A DNA stretch of 64,000 bases. Origin: Cellvibrionales bacterium. GTDB lineage: Bacteria; Pseudomonadota; Gammaproteobacteria; Pseudomonadales; JAHEIH01. The stretch covers positions 62,001-126,000 of the forward strand of contig JAHEIH010000004.1 of assembly GCA_024639455.1 (NCBI GenBank). Reading direction: 5' to 3'. The notes beneath the pieces are model-generated. The model was not told where the DNA came from, ran no database searches, and saw only the letters and a program-made list of their open reading frames with translations. Positions 1,726 through 32,498 of this stretch are shown piece by piece; the stretch's first letter is position 1, and each line of letters begins with the position of its first letter. A program made the translations under genes and the position numbers.

Positions 1726-1861
1726 AGCTCCTCCAAATGTTGATTGAAGTGTAGCACCTCATTTCTGCGGTGGCGGGTCAATGTTGGCAAACTGTTGTCA
1801 GGGTAATGTGTCGCTGCCGGTGATTGGGTATGATAGTTGTTTTAATCATCAAGGCACCACA

Positions 1862-3220
1862 ATGGAACTTCTCAATAGCTGGGCAGCGGCGTTTAACAAT
1901 TTTGTGTGGGGCAACAGCATGCTAGTGCTGCTGGTTGGCGGTGGATTGTTTTTTACCATTTACTCGCGATTAACCCCATTCCGCTATTTAAAGCATGGCT
2001 TCGATTTGCTTACTGGGCGCTACGATGACAGCCATGCGCGCGGCGATATCAGCCATGCACAGGCGCTATCGACAGCACTGGCTGGCACTGTGGGGATGGG
2101 TAATATCGCGGGTGTGGCGCTGGCAATAACCGCCGGCGGTCCTGGGGCGGTGTTTTGGATGTGGGTTTCAGCGCTGGTCGGTGTTTCGACCAAGTTCTTT
2201 ACTTGTACCTTGGGGGTTATGTATCGCCGCACCGATCCCGATGGGCATGTTCGCGGTGGCCCGATGTACGTGGTGATGGAGGGGTTAGGCAAACGTTGGA
2301 AGCCGCTTGCGGTGCTGTTCGCTACGGCGGGTTTATTTGGCACCATGCCGGCTTTTCAAGCTAACCAGTTAACGGCCGTCGTGCGGGAAGAGTTGCTGCC
2401 TAATTTTGCCATGGTAAGTTCTCCGGTGGTGAATTGGGGGATGGCGGTAGTGCTTTCTATCGTCGTCGGGGCGATTTTGTACGGTGGTCTTACCCGGGTC
2501 GCAACGGTGGCTTCGCGGCTAGTTCCTAGTATGGCAATCCTGTATTTGGCGATGACTGCCTTTGTTTTGGCGCAGCACCTGCCTGAACTACCCGGACTAT
2601 TTGCCGCCATCTTTAACGAAGCATTTAACCCGAAGGCCGTGGCGGGTGGCTTGGCGGGGGTGATGCTGATTGGTATTTCTCGCGGCGTGTTTTCCAATGA
2701 AGCTGGTATTGGTACCGAGGTGATGGCGCACGGTGCGGCTAAAACCGACCAGCCAGTGCGCGAAGGATTGGTGGGTATGCTTGGTCCCATCATTGATACC
2801 ATCATTATTTGTACCTGTACCGCGCTAGTGATTCTGGCGTCGGGCGCATGGCAGCACGCCGAGGGGATGCAGGGGGTGGAGTTGACCATGGGTGTGTACC
2901 GCAATGAACTTGGGGTGGTGGGTCAAATTCTATTGTCGATCCAGGTACTGCTGCTAGCGAGCACCACGATGTTTACCTACGGCTACTATGGCGAGCGCTG
3001 TTTCGCCTTCCTTTTTGGCGAGGACGCCGCCAAGCACTACAAGTACTTCTATATCGCAATGATCGCGGTGGGGTGTACGTTTACGCTTGATTTCGTATTC
3101 AATGTGATGATGGGCATGTACGCACTGATGGCGATTCCTACCATGCTGTCGGCGCTGATTTTAGCGCCCAAGGTGATGGCTGCCGCACGGGAGTATTTTG
3201 CTGGCCTCGAGCGGGGTTAG
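1862..3220 (+). CDS. Alanine/glycine:Na+ symporter (AGCS family)
   Basis: This 452-residue inner-membrane protein imports alanine, glycine or a related amino acid with sodium. It has about ten hydrophobic segments and the AGCS family signature GTVGMGNIAGVALAITAGGP followed by WMWVSALVGVSTKF. Other family segments are RGGPMYVV and GVFSNEAGIGTEVMAHGAA. I chose the ATG at 1862 (MELLNSWAAAFNNFVWG) because the 27 extra codons upstream lack membrane character and do not resemble the family. The substrate cannot be read from sequence. The gene is followed by a gene-free hairpin block. Confidence 0.9.
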   Translation: MELLNSWAAAFNNFVWGNSMLVLLVGGGLFFTIYSRLTPFRYLKHGFDLLTGRYDDSHARGDISHAQALSTALAGTVGMGNIAGVALAITAGGPGAVFWMWVSALVGVSTKFFTCTLGVMYRRTDPDGHVRGGPMYVVMEGLGKRWKPLAVLFATAGLFGTMPAFQANQLTAVVREELLPNFAMVSSPVVNWGMAVVLSIVVGAILYGGLTRVATVASRLVPSMAILYLAMTAFVLAQHLPELPGLFAAIFNEAFNPKAVAGGLAGVMLIGISRGVFSNEAGIGTEVMAHGAAKTDQPVREGLVGMLGPIIDTIIICTCTALVILASGAWQHAEGMQGVELTMGVYRNELGVVGQILLSIQVLLLASTTMFTYGYYGERCFAFLFGEDAAKHYKYFYIAMIAVGCTFTLDFVFNVMMGMYALMAIPTMLSALILAPKVMAAAREYFAGLERG

Positions 3221-3228
3221 TACTGGTA

Positions 3229-3247
3229 CCTTGTTCGCAGAACAAGG
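3229..3247. repeat. Short perfect hairpin (8-bp arms), copy 1
   Basis: CCTTGTTC-GCA-GAACAAGG is a perfect 8-bp stem with a 3-base loop. The same 20 bases occur inverted at 3414-3432 in the loop of the central hairpin. It lies nine bases after the symporter stop codon but has no following T-run, so it is not a standard terminator. A weaker stem (ATGAATT/AATTCAT, 3252-3276) follows. Confidence 0.7.
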
Positions 3248-3284
3248 GAATATGAATTCTAGTTGGCTAAATTCATGAAACTTT

Positions 3285-3384
3285 AATCACGGAAACACTT
3301 CGCCGGACCGCCGTGAATACATCCATTTAGGCTAAACGGCAGCATCCATGCTGCCGATTTCCGTCTTAAGTGTTTGCCGTGATT
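3285..3384 (+). repeat. 100-bp double-stem palindromic unit, copy 1 (forward)
   Basis: The outer arms AATCACGGAAACACTT (3285-3300) and AAGTGTTTGCCGTGATT (3368-3384) pair with a one-base bulge. Inside come GCCGGA, the conserved segment CGCCGTGAATACATCCAT plus TTAGGCT, and an inner hairpin CGGCAGCAT-CC-ATGCTGCCG with 9-bp arms. The same plan and length recur at 3462-3561, 30737-30836 and 30895-30994. The element is non-coding and its function is unknown. Confidence 0.85.
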
Positions 3385-3385
3385 T

Positions 3386-3461
3386 TTGAAACATCGTGCC
3401 AGGTCTTAATTTTCCTTGTTCTGCGAACAAGGTCCCAAAGAGGCTTGGCACAATGTTTCAA
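3386..3461. repeat. Central hairpin between two palindromic units, locus 1
   Basis: TTGAAACATCGTGCCAGG (3386-3403) pairs with CTTGGCACAATGTTTCAA (3444-3461) over 18 positions with one or two mismatches. The loop contains the perfect CCTTGTTC/GAACAAGG stem (3414-3432), followed by TCCCA. The hairpin abuts the 100-bp units on both sides, so the whole 3285-3561 block is three consecutive hairpins. The corresponding spacer at the second locus starts with the same TTTTGAAACATCG. Confidence 0.8.
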
Positions 3462-3561
3462 GATTCAGAAATAAAGTGAAAGCCGACCGTCTCGAGACAG
3501 GATGTCGAGAGCGAGCCTACAGGGATGTATTTACGGCGTGTCGGCGTACTTTTTCTGAATC
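3462..3561 (-). repeat. 100-bp double-stem palindromic unit, copy 2 (reverse)
   Basis: The outer arms run from GATTCAGAA (3462-3470) through GCCGAC (3482-3487) and pair with GTCGGC (3540-3545) to CTGAATC (ending 3561). Read on the minus strand, the conserved segment is CGCCGTAAATACATCCCTGT plus AGGCTCGCTC, followed by the inner palindrome around GTCTCGAGAC. It has the same design as copy 1 but a different stem sequence. Between this unit and purD nothing else is recognisable. Confidence 0.85.
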
Positions 3562-3593
3562 AATAGCGCGAGATGAAAAGCAAGAGCCAGAAA

Positions 3594-4877
3594 CTAGCCC
3601 TGCTCTCTAGCCACCGCGCGATAACCAATATCATCGCGGTAGTACACATCTTTCCATGTCACCGCGTGCGTCAGCTCATAAGCTTTGGCTTGTGCTTCTG
3701 CTACGGTGTTGCCAAGGGCGGTGGCGCACAGAACGCGGCCGCCATTGGTGGTTACGTCGCCATCGACCAATTTGGTGCCGGCGTGGAAGACTTTGGCATC
3801 CGTGATCTGGGTGTCTAGGCCGCTGATCACGTCGCCTTTGTTGTAGGCGTTTGGGTAGCCGCCAGCGGCCAGTACGACACCCAGCGCAGCGCGTGGATCC
3901 CACTCGGCGGTGCATTCATCCAGACGTTTATCGAGTGCGGCGTTGCACAAGGCTACCAAATCAGATTGCAGGCGCATCATGATGGGCTGTGTTTCGGGGT
4001 CGCCAAAACGGCAGTTGTATTCGATAACTTTTGGATTGCCTACGCCATCGATCATTAGGCCTGCATACAGAAAGCCGGTATAGCAGTTGCCTTCCGCCGC
4101 CATCGCGTTGACGGTGGGGTAGATCACGCGCTCCATGACCTTTTGGTAGACGCTGTCGGTTACCACGGGGGCGGGTGAGTAAGCACCCATGCCGCCAGTG
4201 TTGGGGCCTTGGTCGCCGTTATCGCGGGCTTTATGGTCTTGGCTGGTGGCCATTGGTAATACGTTGCTGCCGTCGACCATGACGATGAAGCTCGCTTCTT
4301 CGCCACTTAGGAACTCTTCTACAACAACGCGGCAGCCGGCATCGCCAAAGGCATTGCCAGACAGCATATCTTCCACCGCGTCGCGGGCCTCTTGTTCGGT
4401 CATGGCTACGATGACACCTTTACCTGCGGCTAAGCCATCGGCTTTTACCACGATGGGTGCGCCTTTGTCACGAATGTAGGCAAGAGCGGGCTCAACCTCG
4501 GTGAAGTTTTGGTATTCGCCGGTAGGAATGTTGTTTCGAGCCAAGAAATCCTTGGTGAACGCCTTGGAGCCCTCCAATTGCGCTGCGCCTTGACTTGGAC
4601 CAAAGGCGCGCAAGCCTTCGCTGGCAAAACGGTCGACAACACCTTCTACCAAGGGGGCTTCAGGGCCAACGATGGTTAGGGCGATATTTTCCGCTTTGGC
4701 AAAGGCGACGAGGCCGTCGAAATCCAGGACGTCGATATCGACGTTGCTGACCTTCTCTTCCAGCGCGCTGCCGGCGTTGCCAGGAGCAACGTATACGTGT
4801 TCAACACTCGCTGACTGGGTCGCTTTCCAAGCCAATGCGTGTTCGCGACCGCCTGAACCGATAATCAAAATCTTCAT
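3594..4877 (-). CDS. purD: Phosphoribosylamine-glycine ligase (GARS)
   Basis: PurD joins glycine to 5-phosphoribosylamine with ATP in the second step of purine synthesis. The 427 residues cover the whole family: N-domain (MKILIIGSGGREHALAWK), the ATP-grasp core (VKADGLAAGKGVIVA, about residues 144-158), and the conserved QDHKARDNGDQGPNTGGMGA and EYNCRFGDPETQ with its metal ligands. It lies 16 bases after purH on the same strand and is the last gene of a long minus-strand series. Confidence 0.98.
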   Translation of the reverse strand: MKILIIGSGGREHALAWKATQSASVEHVYVAPGNAGSALEEKVSNVDIDVLDFDGLVAFAKAENIALTIVGPEAPLVEGVVDRFASEGLRAFGPSQGAAQLEGSKAFTKDFLARNNIPTGEYQNFTEVEPALAYIRDKGAPIVVKADGLAAGKGVIVAMTEQEARDAVEDMLSGNAFGDAGCRVVVEEFLSGEEASFIVMVDGSNVLPMATSQDHKARDNGDQGPNTGGMGAYSPAPVVTDSVYQKVMERVIYPTVNAMAAEGNCYTGFLYAGLMIDGVGNPKVIEYNCRFGDPETQPIMMRLQSDLVALCNAALDKRLDECTAEWDPRAALGVVLAAGGYPNAYNKGDVISGLDTQITDAKVFHAGTKLVDGDVTTNGGRVLCATALGNTVAEAQAKAYELTHAVTWKDVYYRDDIGYRAVAREQG

Positions 4878-28610: not shown

Positions 28611-28692
28611 GTTTTACTCGCACTCGCTGCCTTAGCCTGTTAAAATGCGTCTCTTTTTGACCCCCCCCAAGCTATTTGCAATAGGGAGACCG

Positions 28693-30594
28693 ATGTTGGC
28701 AAACATTCCAACCATTATTGGATTCGGCGGCGTAAATGCATGCGGCCGCAGTTCTGGCCACCAAGCCTACCGCCGTCAGGTGATCGATTCATTGCAGGCG
28801 AATGACGCGGCAGAAACCTATGCGGCCCTGGCCAGTATGATGGGGTTGGTTGTCGCTGTAGAGGGCGCCTTGGCCGACGCCGTCACCGGGGAGACCTTGA
28901 GCTATGCCGATATCGCTGCCAAATATGGTCAGTGGATTAAAGACAATACCCTGATTCGCCAGTTGGAAGACAATCTTTTCGATCGCAATGCCATTCCCGT
29001 GCACCGCGAAGCTACAGCTGTTGCCGGTGATCAACCAGTGCAATTCGTCATTAAAAAGACCCAGTTAATGTCTACCGTGCCAGCCTCGTGGCAGGTAGAA
29101 GAATTGCGTGGAGGCAGCGTGCGTGTCACTGTGGCTAGCGATACCATTGTTTTGCTGCCCGACCTGCGTCGCTCGCTGGTACAAGCGGCTGGTCAACTGC
29201 CCACGGGCTTTAACCCCGAAGATTTATACAACTCTCGCAGCCATCCTCGCGGTTTGCAGTTGGCGGTGTATGGAGCGTCGGATGCCTTGCACTCGCTAGG
29301 TATCGACTGGGAAGTGATTCGCAGCAAACTATCGCCTGATGAAATGGCGGTTTACGCTGGCAGTTGCATGGGGCAGCTCGATTTTAATGGCGCGGGCGGC
29401 ATGCTGCAATCCAACTTCATGGCTAAACGCGTCAGTGCCAAGCAGTGCGCCCTGAGTTTGGCGGAGATGCCAGCAGATTTTATAAATGCCTACCTCATCG
29501 GAGGTATGGGGGGAGCTGGAGGCACTATCGGGGCATGCGCCACCTATTTGTACAATGTCCGTATGGGGATCAATGATATTCAGAGTGGCCGTCGTCGCTT
29601 GGTGATTGTGGGTAGCGCCGAAGCCCCCATTACTCCCGAGGTGATGGAGGGTTATCGCACTATGGGGGCGCTAGCGGAAGACGAAGCCATCATGGCGCTT
29701 GACCCCGGCCGTGATACCCCCGACTACCGTCGTGCCGCGCGTCCCTTCTCCAACAACTGTGGTTTTACCCTAGCGGAAGGTGCGCAGTTTTTAGTACTAT
29801 GCGACGACGCCCTTGCCTTGGAATTGGGTGCCAATATTTTGGGTGCCGTAGCGGACGTATTCGTTAACGCCGACGGCTTCAAGAAGTCGATTCCTGGCCC
29901 AGGGGTTGGTAACTATTTGACCATGGCGCGCGCCGCGGCAGTTACCCGCGCCATCATTGGTGAGGAAGGACTTCGCGAACGCACTTACGTGCACGCACAC
30001 GGCACGAGCACCCCGCAAAACCGCGTCACCGAGTCAGAAATTATCAACGAAATCGCCAAGACCTTCGGTATTGAAAAATGGCCCGTAGCGGCGGTGAAGT
30101 CTTATTTGGGTCACACCTTAGGCCCCGCCGGTGGCGATCAGATCGCCTCGGGGTTGGGGGTATGGAAATACGGCATTATCCCCGGTATCAAAACTGTGGA
30201 GACTATCGCCGACGATGTGGCGCAGTCGAACATCAACTTCCTACTGCAAGACACTCACGTGGGTGTTACCGGTATGGATGCGATGATCATCAACTCTAAG
30301 GGCTTTGGTGGCAACAACGCTTCGGCCAGTATTCTGGCGCCACACGTAGTGAAGGATATGCTGACCCGCAAATACGGGGCGCAAGCGATGGCGGAGTACG
30401 CGGATCGCAACGTGGCCGTCGCGGCGCAAACCGAGCAAAACGATCGCGATATTATTGAAGGCAAGTTGAAGCCAATCTACCTGTTCGACAATGGTGTGCT
30501 GGATGGCGGTGATCTGGAACTGACCGATACGTCGATTGGTGTGAAGGGGTATCAGCATAAGGTAAGCCTGGAGATTACCAACCCCTACGAGTAG
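28693..30594 (+). CDS. fabY: FabY-type beta-ketoacyl synthase
   Basis: This 633-residue ketosynthase is about 200 residues longer than FabB/FabF. Its length and opening (PTIIGFGGVNACGRSSGHQA) match FabY of Pseudomonas aeruginosa, which condenses acetyl-CoA with malonyl-ACP to start fatty acid synthesis. The thiolase-fold triad is visible: Cys in GGTIGACATYLYNV, His in YVHAHGTSTPQNRVTESE and His in KSYLGHTLGPAGGDQ. I chose ATG 28693 because GGGAG precedes it. It is monocistronic and followed by the second hairpin block. Confidence 0.83.
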   Translation: MLANIPTIIGFGGVNACGRSSGHQAYRRQVIDSLQANDAAETYAALASMMGLVVAVEGALADAVTGETLSYADIAAKYGQWIKDNTLIRQLEDNLFDRNAIPVHREATAVAGDQPVQFVIKKTQLMSTVPASWQVEELRGGSVRVTVASDTIVLLPDLRRSLVQAAGQLPTGFNPEDLYNSRSHPRGLQLAVYGASDALHSLGIDWEVIRSKLSPDEMAVYAGSCMGQLDFNGAGGMLQSNFMAKRVSAKQCALSLAEMPADFINAYLIGGMGGAGGTIGACATYLYNVRMGINDIQSGRRRLVIVGSAEAPITPEVMEGYRTMGALAEDEAIMALDPGRDTPDYRRAARPFSNNCGFTLAEGAQFLVLCDDALALELGANILGAVADVFVNADGFKKSIPGPGVGNYLTMARAAAVTRAIIGEEGLRERTYVHAHGTSTPQNRVTESEIINEIAKTFGIEKWPVAAVKSYLGHTLGPAGGDQIASGLGVWKYGIIPGIKTVETIADDVAQSNINFLLQDTHVGVTGMDAMIINSKGFGGNNASASILAPHVVKDMLTRKYGAQAMAEYADRNVAVAAQTEQNDRDIIEGKLKPIYLFDNGVLDGGDLELTDTSIGVKGYQHKVSLEITNPYE

Positions 30595-30649: not shown

Positions 30650-30736
30650 GAAGGGGTAACTTGGTTATTCAGCATCGTTCCCGACGATTTTGAATAACGA
30701 AGATCAGGGGAACCTAATTGAACAATTCTTGTATTT

Positions 30737-30836
30737 ATGCCGCCTTATTCCACGCGGACACGCCGTGAACCCATCCATGGGGGCTTGCTCTCGACATCCT
30801 GTCTCGAGACAGTCCGCTTAGGAATAATGTCGACAT
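30737..30836 (+). repeat. 100-bp double-stem palindromic unit, copy 3 (forward)
   Basis: The outer arms run from ATGCCGCC through TTATTCC to GCGGAC (30754-30759) and pair with GTCCGC (30812-30817) through GGAATAA to CGACAT (30836). The conserved segment is ACGCCGTGAACCCATCCATG plus GGGGCTTGCTC. The inner part carries TCTCGA/TCGAGA and the perfect 14-base palindrome CTGTCTCGAGACAG (30799-30812). The inner sequence is that of copy 2, but the outer stem is GCGGAC/GTCCGC rather than GCCGAC/GTCGGC. Confidence 0.85.
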
Positions 30837-30894
30837 TTTGAAACATCGCACAAGTGTCTATTTTGGATTGCTCTAATGACGCCCGTTGTTTCGA
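30837..30894. repeat. Central spacer hairpin, locus 2
   Basis: TTTGAAACA at the left pairs with TGTTTCGAAA at the right. The left side shares TTTTGAAACATCG with the central hairpin of locus 1. It is shorter (58 bases), and its loop does not contain the CCTTGTTC stem. Confidence 0.65.
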
Positions 30895-30994
30895 AATCCC
30901 AGCAAATACAGTGGCCGGAAAGCGGCAGCATGGATGCTGCCGTTTAACCTATAGGGATAAATTTACGGCGGTCCGGCGTTGTGTTGCCGGGATA
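30895..30994 (-). repeat. 100-bp double-stem palindromic unit, copy 4 (reverse)
   Basis: ATCCCAGCAA through GCCGGA pairs with TCCGGC through TTGCCGGGAT. On the minus strand the conserved segment reads CGCCGTAAATTTATCCCTAT plus AGGTT, followed by the inner hairpin CGGCAGCAT-CC-ATGCTGCCG, identical to copy 1. A CCTTTGTC-TTC-GACACAGG stem (31021-31039) followed by TCCCA lies downstream and resembles the CCTTGTTC stem and TCCCA of locus 1. No gene is visible in 30595-31056. Confidence 0.85.
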
Positions 30995-31056
30995 GTAAAT
31001 CCTGGGTTTTATGCTCAATTCCTTTGTCTTCGACACAGGTCCCACAGGGTGGGGAG

Positions 31057-31515
31057 CTAGAAGCCGACCGCCTTTTTAAGGCTGTCTAAGTCCTGTGGGC
31101 CGACCAGTGTTTTCACGAGCTTGCCCTCGGAGTCTAGGATAAACGTCGTCGGCAATACCTCCGGTTTTTTCTGACCCAACAAGCCGCTGATATCTTCCAC
31201 CACGACATCGAACTCGATGTTCAGTTGCTCCGCTTGCTCGACGAGCTTGTCGCCGCGAATGCCATCCCAGTTAATTGCCACAATCGCCGCTTTGTCCGCG
31301 TAAGTGTGAGCGAATTCATTGAGCTCCGGAATTTCCTTAAGGCAGGGTTTACACCACTCGGCCCAGTAATTAATTAGCAGGTATTTACCGCGGTAGTCCT
31401 CTAAGCGGCCACCACTGCCATCGGCGAAGTGGAACTCAGGGGCGGGCGAACACGCTAATAACAGCGTACAAATAAAAGTGAGAGCGGCGCGTTTAGCCAG
31501 TGTTAAACGGTGCAT
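31057..31515 (-). CDS. TlpA/ResA-like thioredoxin lipoprotein
   Basis: This 152-residue protein starts at ATG 31515 (MHRLTLAKRAALTFICTLLL, lipobox LLAC), so it is anchored in the periplasm. It carries a thioredoxin fold with the reducing motif YWAEWCKPCLKEIPEL and the cis-proline region LPTTFILD. TlpA-type proteins reduce apo-cytochrome c or other periplasmic disulfides. The target is not indicated by neighbours: it is divergent from arsC with 42 bases between starts. Confidence 0.88.
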   Translation of the reverse strand: MHRLTLAKRAALTFICTLLLACSPAPEFHFADGSGGRLEDYRGKYLLINYWAEWCKPCLKEIPELNEFAHTYADKAAIVAINWDGIRGDKLVEQAEQLNIEFDVVVEDISGLLGQKKPEVLPTTFILDSEGKLVKTLVGPQDLDSLKKAVGF

Positions 31516-31557
31516 GGGGTTCCTATGTCTATGTATAATGCCCAAAAAGGAGTTGAT

Positions 31558-32498
<941 letters not shown>

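Follow-up and report, generated by a model that had tools for sequence, protein, structure and literature searches.

A class-wide family of three-way-junction repeats in Gammaproteobacteria, related to YPAL, with variable arms that tend to stay paired

Introduction

The closest described relative of the repeats analysed here is YPAL, an element recorded for Yersinia and Erwinia carotovora in the accessible part of PMC2229807, which describes it as having no TA ends, internal inverted repeats, duplications of 3–26 bp and targets that span or adjoin dyad symmetry, and which proposes that it might affect the stability of upstream transcripts. RU-2, the YPAL of Y. pestis, is 168 nt long and carries the core discussed below (table in the excerpt of PMC2759123). 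A second relative is Ysr224, one of the 20 most prevalent bacterial small RNAs listed in the accessible text of PMC9029176, where it is reported to be temperature-responsive; in Y. ruckeri it has several copies whose expression differs, according to the available portion of PMC12112432. REPs carry a GTAG or CGTC tag (PMC3733652, in part). No description of a class-wide family was found in the literature searched, from which subscription papers mostly fell outside.

We analysed a window of 64,000 nucleotides from a Cellvibrionales bacterium (contig JAHEIH010000004.1, positions 62,001 to 126,000), in which an initial annotation had proposed four 100-bp units with covarying outer stems. Here we describe these units, their copies elsewhere in the same genome and their relatives in other genomes. 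The family is real and class-wide in Gammaproteobacteria, and is kin of YPAL.

Results

Four units in the window match R1, a covariance model whose training copies include these four units themselves. They form two convergent pairs, which corrects the unit layout given initially. Unit 1 lies at 3285–3384 on the + strand (R1 125.6 bits at 3280–3392; positions follow the columns of alignment A1), with outer arms at 3285–3307 and 3360–3384, hairpin A at 3310–3332 and hairpin B at 3337–3356. Its tail, TTGAAACATCGTGCCA, at 3386–3401 (+), was compared with other copies from the same genome by eye. The convergent partner, unit 2, at 3462–3561 on the − strand (81.8 bits at 3455–3565), has a hairpin B of the CTCGACATCCTGTCTCGAG type and a tail, TTGAAACATTGTGCCA read on −, at 3446–3461 that is largely complementary to the tail of unit 1. 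These tails face each other as inverted repeat I3, 81% complementary over 27 nt; no such inverted repeat was listed for pair 2. Unit 3 (30737–30836, +; 95.1 bits at 30732–30844) has the tail TTGAAACATCGC at 30838–30849 (+), and its convergent partner, unit 4 (30895–30994, −; 96.5 bits at 30888–30999), a divergent tail at 30884–30894 (−). Units 1–3 have in common a tail TTGAAACATYG beyond the 3' arm, in place of which unit 4 has TCGAAACAACG, read on −. Pair 1 sits between converging ORFs at 1781–3220 (+) and 3594–4877 (−), in the ORF list and by separate gene calling alike; pair 2 sits between ORFs at 28645–30594 (+) and 31057–31608 (−), converging in the ORF list and tandem by separate gene calling.

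Short palindromes of the form CCTTGTTC-NNN-GAACAAGG also occur near the units, at 3229–3247 and 3414–3432, with a looser one of this kind at ~31021–31046 and with GGGAC/GTCCC beside some of them. They may represent a further REP-like family in this genome.

Each unit is a three-way junction in which the outer arms close on hairpin A and hairpin B. Hairpin A follows the plan GCC-GTRAA-NNN-ATCCMT-NNN-GGC, with a 3-bp stem that covaries (TAC/GTA, CCC/GGG, TCC/GGA, TAT/ATA) around the loop ATCCMT; hairpin B is exemplified by CGGCAGC-ATCCAT-GCTGCCG. The initial annotation had described a conserved unpaired segment and an inner hairpin. That segment is mostly hairpin A, with its covarying stem, rather than unpaired. 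Against dinucleotide shuffles, the folds reach z-scores on the + and − strands of −6.0 and −5.7 (unit 1), −4.2 and −4.1 (unit 2), −2.1 and −3.4 (unit 3) and −3.3 and −4.5 (unit 4), and the fold of unit 3 was equalled in 4/200 shuffles on + and 1/200 on −. All four fold better than shuffles, and the proposal of one shared plan holds.

A degenerate core pattern allowing up to two mismatches gave 28 matches in the same genome, where the reversed-pattern control gave 0. We judged 25 of the 28 to be units or remnants (L029, L030 and L034 were not unit-like); R1 gives 19 at E ≤ 0.001, so that the copy number is ~19–25. Alignment A1 comprises 18 of the 25 units; L013, L014, L016, L018, L025, L028 and L032 were left out as truncated or differently built, L028 having been mis-extracted. 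In A1, 20/33 pairs show a two-sided change. Cells with two-sided changes number 100 (39.2 in shuffles, sd 4.8), 84.3% of cells are paired (69.1% in shuffles), and the covariation score is 0.414, vs. 0.164 for shuffles and 0.073–0.126 for partners slid by 1–3 columns, the latter control being lenient because the A1 structure was drawn partly from the same sequences. Further pair types were not above shuffles in A1 (38 vs. 38.5). The outer stem varies between copies and tends to stay paired, as the initial annotation had claimed from four copies, and the covariation is far above both shuffled and slid controls. That the arms are wholly different between copies is true of the four window units but not of the rest of the genome, where four groups share arms (L007/L010/L017; L012/L021; L022/L023/L031; L015/L024/L026/L027/L033; by eye). 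In 13 of the 18 A1 units the 3' arm is followed by the tail TTGAAACATCG, either exact or in a version of varying closeness, the five without it being of the L015 type (by eye). Three units form a tandem array ~205 bases apart at G000:C22:165540-166063, and five alternating units stand 112–121 bases apart at G000:C27:404780-405358, where those of the same direction are ~233 bases apart.

The further copies that the initial annotation had called for were also found outside this genome. R1 matches were obtained in 16/56 relatives, in at least 49/274 genomes drawn from the class and in at least 27/398 drawn from the phylum; the last two counts are lower bounds because filters were stricter and the best 13 and 9 candidates per genome, respectively, were scored. 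All 27 genomes of the phylum draw belong to the order or class of the window's genome, which is itself one of them; the draw's share of genomes from other classes is not stated. One genome of the class draw, G322, has an R1 match identical to one in the Methylotuvimicrobium genome G068, on which ground the class of that draw is taken to be Gammaproteobacteria. Among the genomes of 84,980 species, the exact core pattern was found in at least 119 stretches, the matches listed including Stenotrophomonas, Xanthomonas, Arenimonas, Rheinheimera, Marinobacter, Microbulbifer, Alteromonas, Saccharospirillum, Methylotuvimicrobium, Sodalis and Yersinia. Twenty named genomes, chosen for having a match, carry from 17 to at least 150 copies each, and Yersinia similis carries 76 by R1. 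No match to window-pair DNA was found among plasmids or phages, and in the viral collection the exact core pattern occurs in one contig only (L353:6230-6253). Of 5,426 E. coli genomes, five have a match to a Y. similis copy, at 74.6%; four of these five matches are on plasmids, and all five genomes are from waste water.

At gathering scores, Rfam returned no match in the window. Ysr224 (RF02770, Yersinia sRNA 224) scores 14.8 and 13.5 bits on units 1 and 2, far below its threshold of 70, with two unrelated families appearing at chance level in the scan of pair 1; units 3 and 4 were scanned against Ysr224 at the gathering cut-off only. It reaches threshold in 3 of 12 other loci, namely L145 of Y. 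similis (126.5 bits), L275 (87.6) and L139 of Sodalis (82.9), and overlaps an R1 unit in the Y. similis and Sodalis loci. The comparison with Rfam thus yields a shared core at sub-threshold score, and the earlier impression of a known gammaproteobacterial repeat was sound, since YPAL/RU-2 and Ysr224 both share this core.

Across genomes, a core of ~60 nt (hairpin A, hairpin B and the three-way junction) is conserved, and arms of ~20–35 bp are nearly free in sequence with pairing kept. An ungapped stem scoring at least 9 was found in 282 of 354 distinct units identified by pattern (median length 26 bp and median score 22 among the 282), compared with a median score of 5 and a maximum of 10 in 150 shuffled flanks; the other 72 were left out of the mismatch counts, and the 282 include no copies from the window's own genome. 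Alignment A2 (113 matches) has many arm pairs in which each of the four Watson-Crick types occurs. Genome G006 has 14 scored units with different arms (by eye) and near-perfect stems of 18–37 bp, 8 of the 14 exceeding 30 bp.

Orthologous copies record how the arms change. In 27 unit comparisons among three Stenotrophomonas genomes, which are not independent as the genomes were compared pairwise, arm positions changed on both sides in 92 cases and on one side in 48. Both counts are inflated by indels because the count is ungapped and one mirrored indel shifts several positions; a single truncated arm, present in two comparisons, accounts for 18 of the 48. The mirrored changes cluster. Two units whose first 25 nt of core are identical differ at 11 and 6 positions on both sides and at none on one side. 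The former reflects about three mirrored events including indels (CCAGC in one arm with GCTGG in the other; GAG and CTC), and its hairpin B differs. In a search of six genomes (best ~40 candidates per genome), its core alone matches many copies, and arms plus core of the G059 form fully match one other place, in G058, presumably the orthologue; therefore, no donor was found for this unit in the six genomes. The new arms of the second unit resemble those of paralogues (by eye), and whole-hairpin exchange therefore fits too. Mirrored two-sided arm changes between orthologous Stenotrophomonas copies are new here, and are what template switching or whole-hairpin exchange would give. Template switching has been proposed to create and repair hairpin stems (PMC8794818, in part).

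Near-identical copies within a genome give a mixed picture. The arm differences in G031 are one-sided in 226 cases vs. 61 mirrored, which counts against mirrored rewriting and is what plain decay of a young family predicts. Symmetric breakpoints, where both arms diverge within 1 nt, were scored as observed vs. permuted fractions of 0 vs. 0 in G031 (7 pairs), 0.40 vs. 0.19 in G051 (42 pairs), 0.75 vs. 0.32 in G030 (4 pairs), 0.80 vs. 0.51 in G059 (15 pairs) and 1.00 vs. 0.58 in G060 (7 pairs), with one pair in G056 and none in G006 or G040. Some orthologous Stenotrophomonas sites (e.g. ~L323:4221-4266 and L303:19628-19685) hold ~80 extra bases with hairpins inside the loop of hairpin A or B, and several pairs (e.g. 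L293, L296, L303) have GCAACA-type repeats and common head and tail sequences on their two sides in inverted orientation (by eye).

The mismatches that remain in the stems are unequally distributed between strands, and the stem scoring is blind to mismatch type. Read on the CGCCGTRAA strand, when each of the 86 arm clusters is represented by one randomly drawn unit (three draws), A.C numbers 65–85 vs. 10–14 for G.T, T.C 44–51 vs. 4–5 for G.A, and C.C 10–15 vs. 0 for G.G. The by-distance table locates 39 T.C mismatches 5–9 nt from the core, where they probably form a fixed internal loop. G.T, G.A and G.G are the better tolerated mismatches, and A.C, T.C and C.C become these when read on the other strand, so that in many genomes the strand that folds seems to be the complement of CGCCGTRAA. 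Counting A.C, T.C and C.C together vs. G.T, G.A and G.G, with copies not deduplicated, gives 128 vs. 11 in named loci, 143 vs. 23 in mixed other loci, 61 vs. 0 in G031, 29 vs. 3 in G051, 18 vs. 5 in G030 and 4 vs. 0 in G040. The three Stenotrophomonas genomes (S. maltophilia complex) are borderline (14 vs. 5, p 0.06), and G006 has 14 vs. 10 overall with A.C/G.T reversed (1 vs. 6). The window's own genome is without asymmetry (A.C 18, G.T 17; T.C 19, G.A 10; C.C 4, G.G 0; A1 structure, once per arm family), so the strand claim covers much of the family and not the window copies. Such an asymmetry fits folded RNA as well as single-stranded DNA.

Most units are found on the downstream side of genes, either singly or in convergent pairs. 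In a survey of 243 clusters by the strict pattern, which misses diverged partners and counts orthologues from the three Stenotrophomonas genomes separately, 184 are single units, and convergent pairing is thus not universal. The 52 two-unit clusters comprise 44 convergent, 2 divergent and 6 same-direction arrangements. Flanks were long enough for a neighbour call in 157 clusters, and the neighbouring genes (longest ORF) are convergent in 53, tandem in 83 and divergent in 15, with no call in 6. Single units between same-direction genes are oriented with the genes in 34 cases and against them in 31.

Many copies in G031 and G051 share arms and are embedded in longer elements with inverted ends, which look like MITEs. 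In G031 the ends are AATGGCACTTACTTAAG, the elements are 186–198 bp long, and both 17-bp inverted ends (≤6 mismatches) were found in 8/20 loci, 3 of these 8 having duplications of 8–11 bp (6.6% in random flank pairs). In G051 the ends are GAGGGTGTCGCAAAACC, the element is 173 bp long, and inverted ends were found in 6/17 loci, and none of the six has a duplication of at least 5 bp. In Stenotrophomonas, three chromosomal segments share most unit sites, and at 8/11 G059 sites the insert is about as long as its counterpart in the other Stenotrophomonas genomes, wherever such a site was found. At the three shortened sites most short alleles retain remnants and look like deletions; the G060 allele at site 275531 is without an obvious remnant. 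An insertion event was not established at any site.

Two kinds of candidate mover were considered. Y1_Tnp matches occur in 14/16 unit-bearing relatives (G033 below the curated cut-off) vs. 23/40 others (Fisher p 0.06), with no match in G040 or G048, which carry 18 and 6 copies. Reverse transcriptases occur in 9/16 vs. 14/40 (p 0.23), so that neither association is significant, and the window's own genome has no reverse transcriptase. It has two Y1 transposase (RAYT-like) genes, at L035 1450-1899 and L036 ~1439-1899, each flanked by its own, different GTGGG-containing repeats (partly by eye), and the loose core pattern found no unit beside either. RAYT was rejected as the mover on the weak association and the two unit-bearing genomes without Y1_Tnp, and reverse transcriptase on its p value and its absence here. 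No mobilising enzyme was identified, each of the two being absent from some unit-bearing relatives; such an enzyme may since have been lost from some genomes.

Discussion

We consider it reasonably likely that the units are a non-autonomous mobile hairpin module, widespread and related to YPAL, in which the pairing of rewritten arms is maintained. Template switching between the arms, or exchange of whole hairpins, would rewrite both arms together, and selection would favour folding of one strand, the complement of CGCCGTRAA. An enzyme may recognise the fold of the single strand, as happens with integron attC sites and REPs, and the window copies would be mobile; in two genomes the module sits in MITE-like elements with inverted ends. 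The initial annotation had left the choice between structure kept by selection and structure created by copying. Both may act: mirrored multi-base and indel changes point to copying, and the strand asymmetry of mismatches, though not in the window's own genome, points to selection on one folded strand. A bolder version, which we hold doubtful, makes the fold rather than the sequence the heritable feature: the three-way junction of one strand would be read by a single-strand enzyme across Gammaproteobacteria, with template switching rewriting 20–35 bp arms in near-perfect mirror and unrelated MITE-like elements acquiring the module independently.

Several observations could instead suggest that the family is one of structured RNAs, either small RNAs (Ysr224) or message-stabilising 3'-UTR hairpins, and that its covariation is ordinary RNA selection: RF02770 covers the same core, Ysr224 is temperature-responsive (PMC9029176, in part) with copies differently expressed in Y. 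ruckeri (PMC12112432, in part), and YPAL might affect upstream transcript stability (PMC2229807, in part). We regard this as unlikely. The even split of single units with and against flanking same-direction genes (34 vs. 31) speaks against a message-borne RNA, a transcript across a convergent pair has one unit in each sense, and the annotated strand has no G.U excess (G.T 58 vs. A.C 95 in A2; 40 vs. 230 in the stem survey), the mismatch asymmetry favouring the opposite strand. That asymmetry (128 vs. 11 in named loci and 61 vs. 0 in G031, not deduplicated, and holding per arm cluster) also argues against a cruciform, for which the two strands would be equivalent. We accordingly judge it distinctly unlikely that the units are elements of double-stranded DNA architecture, be it cruciforms, BIME-like protein sites or boundaries where genes converge, whose pairing symmetric processes maintain, even though 44/52 two-unit clusters are convergent, at gene 3' ends, divergent neighbours are few (15 vs. 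53 convergent), and neither the window's own genome nor G006 has A.C/G.T asymmetry of this direction.

The arms might also be target palindromes (terminators) with the core inserted at their tip, so that the arms of a copy would be those of the target it entered. YPAL targets lie across or next to dyad symmetry (PMC2229807, in part), three G051 copies have GTCGGG or ATCGGG on one side and CCCGAC on the other, and the Stenotrophomonas units have extra hairpins within the loops of hairpin A or B (both by eye). This origin is nevertheless improbable: the variable arms lie between the conserved core and a tail common, as variants, to 13/18 A1 units (by eye), and orthologous sites have similar flanks and different arms. 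The G006 stems of 18–37 bp, moreover, mostly exceed the usual length of terminators. The idea that the units are ordinary REP/BIME elements moved by a RAYT (Y1 transposase) seems to us very improbable; the distribution of Y1_Tnp (14/16 vs. 23/40 genomes, p 0.06) and the two such genes in the window's own genome are in its favour, but G040 and G048 carry units without a Y1_Tnp match, the genome's own Y1 genes are flanked by different repeats with no unit adjoining, and the unit size is unlike that of 20–40 bp REPs (PMC3733652, in part).

The family unites the Yersinia repeat, the Rfam 'small RNA' and numerous intergenic hairpins from elsewhere in the Gammaproteobacteria, and this suggests that a repeat element underlies many of the Ysr224 annotations. 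The arms are a natural record of stem evolution: at orthologous sites the two partners of a pair change jointly, several bases or one indel at a time. The strand asymmetry offers a testable handle on the mover, which would be a protein binding the folded complement strand.

The likeness to YPAL is one of sequence, structure and position. In the accessible part of PMC2759123, RU-2 contains agcctacatggatgtatttacggcg and gcgccaaggatggcgc, the core of the family, and by comparison of its printed sequence it shares with A1 ACATCCATGT-type and GCGCC-ATCC-GGCGC-type hairpins adjoining CGCCGTAAA. Both are intergenic, with many copies and internal inverted repeats, and both lie at gene ends, here in the window pairs and in the 157-cluster neighbour survey. 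YPAL is ~168 bp long, compared with ~100–113 bp by model plus tail for the window units, 173 bp in G051 and 186–198 bp in G031 where both ends were found. Its duplications are 3–26 bp (PMC2229807, in part), compared with 8–11 bp in 3/8 two-ended G031 copies and none of 5 bp or more in six G051 copies. In the portions of the literature available, YPAL is one sequence family plus YPAL*, with three E. coli copies in one table; unlike it, the present family has arms that vary within one genome, frequent convergent pairs and a range spanning the class. The Ysr224 consensus holds the same core, and its model comprises the 5' arm and core with other pairing and without the 3' arm (by inspection). REP/BIME elements are likewise palindromic, intergenic, arranged in inverted pairs and numerous in a genome, but differ in size and core, the present unit being ~100 bp and REPs 20–40 bp (PMC3733652, in part). 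Two unit-bearing genomes, moreover, have no Y1_Tnp match. In a looser analogy, the family may be likened to integron attC sites, which are recognised as a folded single strand and have arms free in sequence with conserved structure.
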